From the NCBI RefSeq assembly GCF_000445185.1, contig NZ_AVAF01000004.1, positions 1 through 39,109 of the forward strand: DNA of 39,109 bases. The letters are read 5' to 3'. A program made the position numbers and the translations under genes. The stretch comes from Thermoanaerobacter sp. A7A. GTDB lineage: Bacteria > Bacillota > Thermoanaerobacteria > Thermoanaerobacterales > Thermoanaerobacteraceae. A model generated the notes under the pieces. That model had not been told where the DNA came from, did no database searches, and saw only the letters and a program-made list of their open reading frames with translations. Of the stretch, positions 37,088 to 38,403 are shown piece by piece (within the stretch, counting starts at the first letter, position 1; every line of letters starts with the position of its first letter).

Positions 37088-37123
37088 GGACGGTTCTTTT
37101 GTCTGCAGACAAAAGAACCGTCC
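37088..37123. repeat. REP-like hairpin repeat, copy E
   Basis: A perfect 36-base palindrome, GGACGGTTCTTTTGTC followed by TGCA and the exact complement, behind the DUF218 gene. It is followed by four near-tandem TTGTCTA units (37126-37154). The outer ACAAGG arm found in other copies is present only on the right side. Confidence 0.8.
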
Positions 37124-37162: not shown

Positions 37163-37567
37163 TTATTCTTTCAACTCGACTATTGGAGGGAAAATATATG
37201 GCTTACCAAACATTTTATCAGTAATAAAACTAACAATAAAGCTCATTTCACTAGCCATAAAATTCAAAAGGTCTGAAATATTTTCTTTAATTTTGTCTTC
37301 TGTAATTACTTCACTAAAATGAAAAGTACCAATCAATTCGATCTTAATATTAAATATCTTTTGTGGATCAAATCCTATTTCTGCACTCAACTTGATTTCA
37401 GCTTCATTGTTGTTAATACCTATAATTTCATAATCAAATTTTTCTTTTAATTTTACGCCTTTTCCATCTGATATCATAGTATATGGCAGACTTTCAGCTA
37501 TAATTCTATTAAGTTTAATGTTGCTTTTTTCTATCTTTTTAATAATATTTGTTCTCTTTTTAGGCAT
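37163..37567 (-). CDS. SecB-like chaperone of a TAC (toxin-antitoxin-chaperone) operon
   Basis: 134 residues resembling small SecB-like chaperones. Alternating strands (KFDYEIIGINNNEAEIKLSAEIGFDPQKIFNIKIELIGTFHF) lead to a C-terminal helix, ISDLLNFMASEMSFIVSFITDKMFGKPYIFPPIVELKE. It ends in a P-rich turn like the conserved PPI/V segment of SecB. Canonical SecB is absent from most Firmicutes, whereas solitary SecB-like proteins behind toxin-antitoxin pairs are known as TAC chaperones that protect the antitoxin. It lies 16 bases behind hicB with AAGGTGG seven bases upstream of the ATG. The family assignment comes from pattern reading, so a profile search should confirm it. Confidence 0.7.
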   Translation of the reverse strand: MPKKRTNIIKKIEKSNIKLNRIIAESLPYTMISDGKGVKLKEKFDYEIIGINNNEAEIKLSAEIGFDPQKIFNIKIELIGTFHFSEVITEDKIKENISDLLNFMASEMSFIVSFITDKMFGKPYIFPPIVELKE

Positions 37568-37583
37568 GATACCACCTTCATTA

Positions 37584-38048
37584 TTAATTTACCAATTCTA
37601 CATTATCTACCTTTTTCCATTTTCCTATTAACGACTCAATTATTATGTCATTAAATACTGGTCTATAATCACTGCTTATATCTTTTTTTGCTCTTTTATA
37701 ACCAATGGCAAATGAGAGTAGATTTTGAATTAAATTATTTAAACTTACCCCTTCCTCTTCAGCCATTTCTGAAAGTGTTTTGTGCATGCTCTTAGGAATT
37801 CTTAAAAGAAGTTTACCACTATGTTCGCTTTCTTCCCTATACTCTTCTTCTGGAGGAATTTTCTTTCCCTTTTCTTTGGCTGTTTTAATCCAACATTTTA
37901 TTGCATCCTGAACATTTTTTAATGCGTCTTCTGGGGTTTCTCCATCACTTATACAACCATGCAATCTTGGTACAATAGCCAAATAACCACCTCCATCTTC
38001 TTCAGAAAGCTTAACAATTTCAACTCTGTAGTTTAACTCATTTGGCAT
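37584..38048 (-). CDS. hicB: HicB-type antitoxin with extended C-terminus
   Basis: 154 residues. The N-terminal half is a degenerate RNase H-like HicB domain (GGYLAIVPRLHGCISDGETPEDALKNVQDAIKCWIKTAKEKGKKIP). A ribbon-helix-helix DNA-binding domain (KLLLRIPKSMHKTLSEMAEEEGVSLNNLIQNLLSFAIGY, about 80-118) follows. The last 35 residues (SSDYRPVFNDIIIESLIGKWKKVDNVELVN) exceed a normal HicB and could be a chaperone-addiction segment like that of HigA1 in the mycobacterial TAC. The ATG follows AGGAGGAATAATA directly behind hicA. It should bind HicA and repress the operon. Confidence 0.88.
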   Translation of the reverse strand: MPNELNYRVEIVKLSEEDGGGYLAIVPRLHGCISDGETPEDALKNVQDAIKCWIKTAKEKGKKIPPEEEYREESEHSGKLLLRIPKSMHKTLSEMAEEEGVSLNNLIQNLLSFAIGYKRAKKDISSDYRPVFNDIIIESLIGKWKKVDNVELVN

Positions 38049-38050
38049 TA

Positions 38051-38317
38051 TTATTCCTCCTCATCTTCAAATTTAACATCAAGCAATTCAATAAGCTTCA
38101 AAGCCTTTTTTACATAAACCGCCTTAATGTGAGGCCTTCCTTTTGGAATAGTTAATATGTCTTCTAGGTCAGCATGAGAATAAGTTATATGACTTGAACC
38201 ACTTCCTGGCTCTCGAGCTTCAAATCCAAAATATTTTAAAATTTTATCTATTTCTTCGAATCTAACATTTTTAGGATTTTCTTTTATTTTTTTATACAGT
38301 TTTTTAATCTGGCTCAT
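38051..38317 (-). CDS. hicA: HicA-type mRNA interferase toxin
   Basis: 88 residues of the HicA double-stranded-RNA-binding-like fold. MSQIKKLYKKIKENPKNVRFEEIDKILKYFGFEAREPGSGSSHITYSH holds the catalytic His in SSHITY (about residue 43), followed by the strand LTIPKGRPHIKAVYVKKALKLIE. It is slightly longer than the most compact HicA proteins. GGAGG stands six bases before the ATG. It is first in the operon hicA-hicB-secB-like, the common toxin-first order of HicAB. Confidence 0.9.
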   Translation of the reverse strand: MSQIKKLYKKIKENPKNVRFEEIDKILKYFGFEAREPGSGSSHITYSHADLEDILTIPKGRPHIKAVYVKKALKLIELLDVKFEDEEE

Positions 38318-38374
38318 GAAAATCCTCCGTAATATTAAATATAGCCATAATAAATTGCTTTATTCATTTAGTAC

Positions 38375-38403
38375 TATATATGATATCATTTTTTATGTAT
38401 CAA
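38375..38403 (-). promoter_or_regulatory. Promoter and operator of hicA-hicB-secB-like
   Basis: On the minus strand TTGATA (38398-38403), a 17-base spacer and TATATA (38375-38380). The spacer includes ATGATATCAT (38380-38389), a perfect palindrome between the hexamers that could be bound by the HicB ribbon-helix-helix domain. Confidence 0.55.

Follow-up and report, generated by a model that had tools for sequence, protein, structure and literature searches.

The window, the whole analysed stretch of 39,109 nucleotides from Thermoanaerobacter sp. A7A, carries three genes arranged head-to-tail on the minus strand. hicA (38051..38317) encodes a HicA-family toxin of 88 aa, a predicted mRNA interferase. 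hicB (37584..38048) encodes an antitoxin of 154 aa. The third gene, termed X below (37163..37567), encodes a predicted SecB-like chaperone of 134 aa. Gaps between the genes are 2 nt and 16 nt. Shine-Dalgarno-like sequences are GGAGG ahead of hicA and of hicB, and GGTGG ahead of X. A type II toxin-antitoxin pair and a SecB-like gene are thus joined in one operon, the layout of a toxin-antitoxin-chaperone (TAC) system. The original prediction had placed a co-directional hicA-hicB-SecB-like set of ORFs here, and its coordinates are exact. A near relative of the locus is found in the same genus, in Thermoanaerobacter thermocopriae JCM 7501.

HicA matches PF07927 in Pfam (E 1e-7, over the gathering score). 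Its G-S-S-H motif includes the presumed catalytic His43, and the S-H part is kept in homologues at loci L007, L011, L013, L017 and L019; RNase activity of HicA is presumed, the S-H motif being the one trace of it in the protein. HicB consists of an N-terminal HicB_lk_antitox domain (residues 15-77) and an RHH HicB domain (72-111), and matches PF15919 and PF05534, both over the curated cut-offs. The HicA (PF07927) and HicB (PF05534/PF15919) genes adjoin, as in HicAB-type type II pairs. In the AlphaFold model of HicB, residues 11-120 are mostly at pLDDT >80. Phage matches of HicB are plain HicB proteins, mostly of Paenibacillus phages, and span residues 5-112 alone.

X as a single sequence has no SecB match in Pfam, NCBIfam, PADLOC or PDB sequences (phmmer). 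It gives no hit above the gathering score of PF02556, the model of canonical SecB. Its single-sequence matches (designed repeat 8vd6, MRT4, protocadherin) are dismissed as chance. The SecB match rests on the family profile and the fold. Relatives of X were gathered from whole genomes and aligned, giving family profiles A1 and A2. A1, from the first search and without distant members, already found a PF02556 locus (G026, E 2e-6), the protein of which matches PF02556 with E 2e-11; in all, 2/25 members of the X family match PF02556. A2 was compared by hhalign with a SecB profile built of Firmicute PF02556 proteins and E. coli SecB, and aligned with it at 97.8%, E 7e-13, over 112 columns, a test not wholly independent because A2 holds two members that match PF02556 themselves. 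Of the SecB similarity proposed for 37163-37567, therefore, the profile-profile search finds what a plain Pfam search does not.

A PDB profile search with the X family gives SecB of H. influenzae (1FX3) as the top match (E 0.007). The AlphaFold model of X has pLDDT 91.7 and pTM 0.84. Foldseek places it closest in the PDB to 5MTW (E 1.3e-6), followed by SecB structures 1OZB, 1FX3 and 1QYN. 5MTW shows Rv1957, which serves as SecB-like chaperone in the TAC of M. tuberculosis, together with its chaperone-addiction (ChAD) peptide. VIA-align superposes the X model on 5MTW over 125 residues (Z 12.3), with about 13% structural sequence identity between X and Rv1957. The model also matches 2O2A and 2HNG, streptococcal proteins whose function is unknown (Z about 11); apart from these and SecB entries, all VIA-align matches (beta-lactamases, LptE, capping protein) are below Z 6 and are unrelated background. 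Because family profile, PDB profile search and fold comparison of the model agree, the predicted SecB-like nature of the third gene is borne out: by profile and model, X is a SecB-fold protein, structurally nearest to a TAC chaperone. A tetrameric state of X is presumed.

With its SecB fold, and as the sole SecB-like candidate detected in the window's genome, where no PF02556 SecB occurs elsewhere, X might be taken for a SecB-type chaperone of general protein export whose place in the hicAB operon is incidental. This reading is highly improbable. Presence of X is patchy within the genus, yet X is tied to hicAB in distant lineages. L75 and E77 of E. coli SecB, known for SecA contact, correspond to N and K in X (by chained alignment only). 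X reaches barely beyond the core fold and lacks the C-terminal SecA-binding tail of SecB. These substitutions and the short C-terminus make an export role of X unlikely, as judged from sequence.

HicB continues for 37 residues beyond the RHH core. This C-terminal extension (residues 118-154; 37587..37697, minus strand) is a putative ChAD, as suggested by its association with the chaperone and its low pLDDT, and carries Trp144 in the context KWKKVDN. An extension of about 35 residues had been predicted. Residues 125-154 have pLDDT <50 and are predicted to be disordered, which would fit an unstructured tail held by a chaperone. The tail ends VELVN; an ssrA-like C-terminal degron was looked for in the window HicB and was not seen.

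Tails were compared using one HicB per sequence cluster, 15 with X and 15 without. Where X follows hicB, tail length is 37-78 residues in 15/15 clusters. Without X they are 0-21 residues long, the single exception being L092 (45 residues). Tails of >=30 aa are thus found in 15/15 clusters with X vs 1/15 without (Fisher p 2e-7), and the extension is a feature missing from two-gene relatives. Plain two-gene HicAB shares the HicA and HicB core domains and a similar operator upstream of hicA, but its HicB stops shortly beyond the RHH domain (tails of 0-21 aa, one exception) and no SecB-like gene follows. This pattern is a signature of chaperone addiction, the dependence itself being putative. L092 (1032-2149), the long tail without X, was checked: behind hicAB with its 45-residue HicB tail lies a different third gene, overlapping and of 121 aa, which matches nothing in Pfam and does not resemble SecB. 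It is possibly another kind of antitoxin partner.

A Trp is present in the tail in 13/15 clusters with X vs 0/15 without (Fisher p 2e-6), a comparison in which the short control tails leave little room for Trp and in which ~44% of TAC tails would be expected to hold one by chance at 1% Trp. Contexts include KWKKVDN, KWHERIN, LWPARNR, QWSRANK and QWRHFKS. The tail Trp is missing in L011 and L067, and the tails are otherwise not alignable. The chaperone-bound peptide of M. tuberculosis HigA1 is EVPTWHRLSSYRG, with main contacts W108, R110 and Y114 (PMC6377645). Likeness of the HicB tail Trp to the HigA1 ChAD is a lead, no proof.

The order hicA-hicB-X is found in 15 clusters of distinct sequence from many Firmicute families, including the window, same-genus, same-family and other-family genomes. 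hicB and X overlap in several clusters, which suggests translational coupling. Within the genus Thermoanaerobacter, X is matched in the window's genome and in three relatives only, of which L014 holds no more than a decayed remnant; such patchy presence of the module is usual for toxin-antitoxin modules. A plasmid search did not find X. The decayed copy (L014, 1516-1878), in a sibling species, consists of the C-terminal half of X and, fused to it, an HTH_40/transposase-like fragment; remnants of transposases lie nearby. X-family proteins without hicAB occur at L015 and L016, beside a gene the product of which resembles, by eye, class I glutamine amidotransferase/gamma-glutamyl hydrolase.

It may be asked whether HicAB is self-sufficient, HicB alone folding and neutralising HicA while X, as an accessory, only lengthens the half-life of HicB or delays toxin release. 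Many plain hicAB pairs exist without X (L080-L098), and hicA is intact in two relatives in which X is frameshifted (L006, L012). The broken frames, however, are single-base indels in otherwise almost identical sequence: L006 (T. thermocopriae) has three of them in the operon, its DNA being near-identical elsewhere, and L012 has lost one A from an 8-A run in X. They look like sequencing errors, could be real, and were rejected as natural knock-outs; if real, they would be evidence against strict chaperone dependence. Long HicB tails and X occur together, which would be expected if it is the tail that makes X necessary. A merely accessory X is given a low probability, though a higher one than an export chaperone.

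Very probably, the three genes form a type II TAC of HicAB type, in which the HicB tail would need the SecB-like X and HicA would otherwise be freed. The system appears genuine and probably functional, its chaperone dependence being putative. The TAC reading had been proposed earlier and holds up on the SecB fold, the conserved gene order, a long tail found nearly only beside the chaperone, and a genome free of PF02556 SecB elsewhere. HicA would act as a small RNase toxin that, once freed, cleaves RNA and halts growth. HicB would dimerise via its RHH domain, repress the operon at a palindrome over the promoter and neutralise HicA. Its tail, probably around Trp144, would make HicB fold or survive only when held by an X tetramer. 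By analogy with established TACs (PMC5105189, PMC6377645), X would bind the tail, enable folding of HicB and shield it from proteolysis. Diversion of X, by heat, by protein-folding stress or possibly by an infecting phage, would lead to loss of HicB and release of HicA. The contact role of the Trp, the trigger of HicA release and the chaperone dependence are proposals.

The predicted promoter of hicA has a -35 box TTGAAT (38408-38403) and an extended -10 box TATCAT (38385-38380); promoter-like matches upstream of hicA are no commoner than in shuffles. The near-palindrome TGATATCATATATAGTACTA (38369..38388, minus strand), upstream of hicA, overlaps the predicted extended -10 box and is a candidate HicB operator. 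Upstream of hicA, the sequence AAAATGATATnATATATAGTA stands unchanged in the genus of the window, in another genus of its family and at L011 in a different family, with flanks that diverge between these loci; it has one exact occurrence in the window's own genome. A looser version, TGRTAYCATATATRGTRYCA with at most 3 mismatches, occurs in 13/15 TAC loci, a count that is partly built in because some of those loci supplied the consensus. It also occurs at many plain hicAB pairs, a count that the consensus does not build in. It is hardly ever present in X/SecB loci without hicAB and is found in 1/300 shuffled loci. The near-palindrome is likely an autoregulatory HicB operator, and its distribution is most readily taken to mean that it belongs to HicAB generally and not to the chaperone.

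HicAB-type TACs as a kind of system are not new. They were predicted by genome surveys (PMC5105189), and Mmet-TAC (hicA-hicB-secB) of Methylomonas methanica MC09 is chaperone-controlled in E. coli, with residues 119-159 of HicB as the ChAD (Bordes et al. 2016, PMC5105189), so the type, which the original prediction called little-studied in a thermophile, is not unexplored. The supposed rarity of canonical SecB in Firmicutes is corrected too: SecB-like genes of this phylum have been described, as has the linkage of SecB to toxin-antitoxin pairs (PMC4257090), and in that work and in the genomes analysed here SecB-like proteins are not especially rare and are often in toxin-antitoxin-like modules. 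Mmet-TAC resembles the window system in its toxin and antitoxin families, in a C-terminal HicB extension of about 40 aa serving as ChAD, and in its SecB-like chaperone gene. It differs in its proteobacterial host, and the window chaperone is missed by PF02556; the two were compared by description. The M. tuberculosis TAC (HigB1-HigA1-Rv1957) shares the toxin-antitoxin-chaperone order, the SecB fold and a Trp in the antitoxin tail (ChAD W108), but is of HigBA and not HicAB type; the HicB tails are without the ssrA-like ...VEVA end implied for HigA1 by a primer sequence in PMC5105189. In CmdTAC / PD-T4-9 (ADP-ribosyltransferase-antitoxin-SecB) a SecB-like chaperone likewise holds the antitoxin, but toxin and antitoxin are unrelated to those of the window and the chaperone is of the Pfam-recognised SecB branch. 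The three window proteins give no PADLOC match, the PD-T4-9 profiles included.

The Firmicute HicAB-TAC branch seems widespread, and both branch and chaperone are apparently unannotated. New are the breadth of this branch, the blindness of PF02556 to its chaperone, the tail Trp and the operator. Only tentatively, and with rather more doubt than trust, is a wider proposition advanced: that an unannotated branch with PF02556-invisible chaperones is widespread in Firmicutes and that its tail Trp docks like W108 of HigA1. If true, one Trp-anchored rule would explain chaperone addiction across unrelated antitoxin families. TACs show how an ordinary antitoxin comes to depend on a dedicated chaperone. 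With tail-less plain HicAB as natural controls, the Firmicute set makes chaperone addiction comparable across many lineages and yields a concrete prediction, the tail Trp. Coming from a thermophile, the window system lends itself to structural studies. The X branch is overlooked when SecB-like chaperones are counted with PF02556.

Other chaperone-associated loci were observed. CmdTAC (PD-T4-9)-like loci are present in related Clostridia (L024, L026, L028, L029, L030, L068) and consist of an ADP-ribosyltransferase-like gene, a small gene and SecB; several of the small genes end -VA or -VAA, like an ssrA/ClpXP tag. At L061 (1480-3093) an X-family chaperone follows an MqsA antitoxin (PF15731) whose C-terminus is much extended; together with a putative MqsR-like toxin this suggests an MqsRA-type TAC that uses the X chaperone branch. 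At L032 (770-2507; also L034, L035 and L036, similar in L033 and L069), in the window's family, a PF02556-type SecB gene lies between two genes. One encodes a protein of about 200 aa with a RAMP/Csm3-like stretch (PF03787, E 8e-6) and an ssrA-like end, GSYAA or YNFAA. The other encodes a protein of about 230 aa with no Pfam match and an ECK motif like that of PD-(D/E)xK nucleases. Such loci may represent a toxin or defence module under chaperone control that has yet to be described. In the window itself, a perfect 36-bp palindrome (GGACGGTTCTTTTGTCTG/CAGACAAAAGAACCGTCC; 37088-37123), followed by TTGTCTA repeats, lies just behind X. A similar element is found at G000:C171:80174, with partial copies elsewhere in the genome; the palindrome is either a shared bidirectional terminator or a small mobile repeat.
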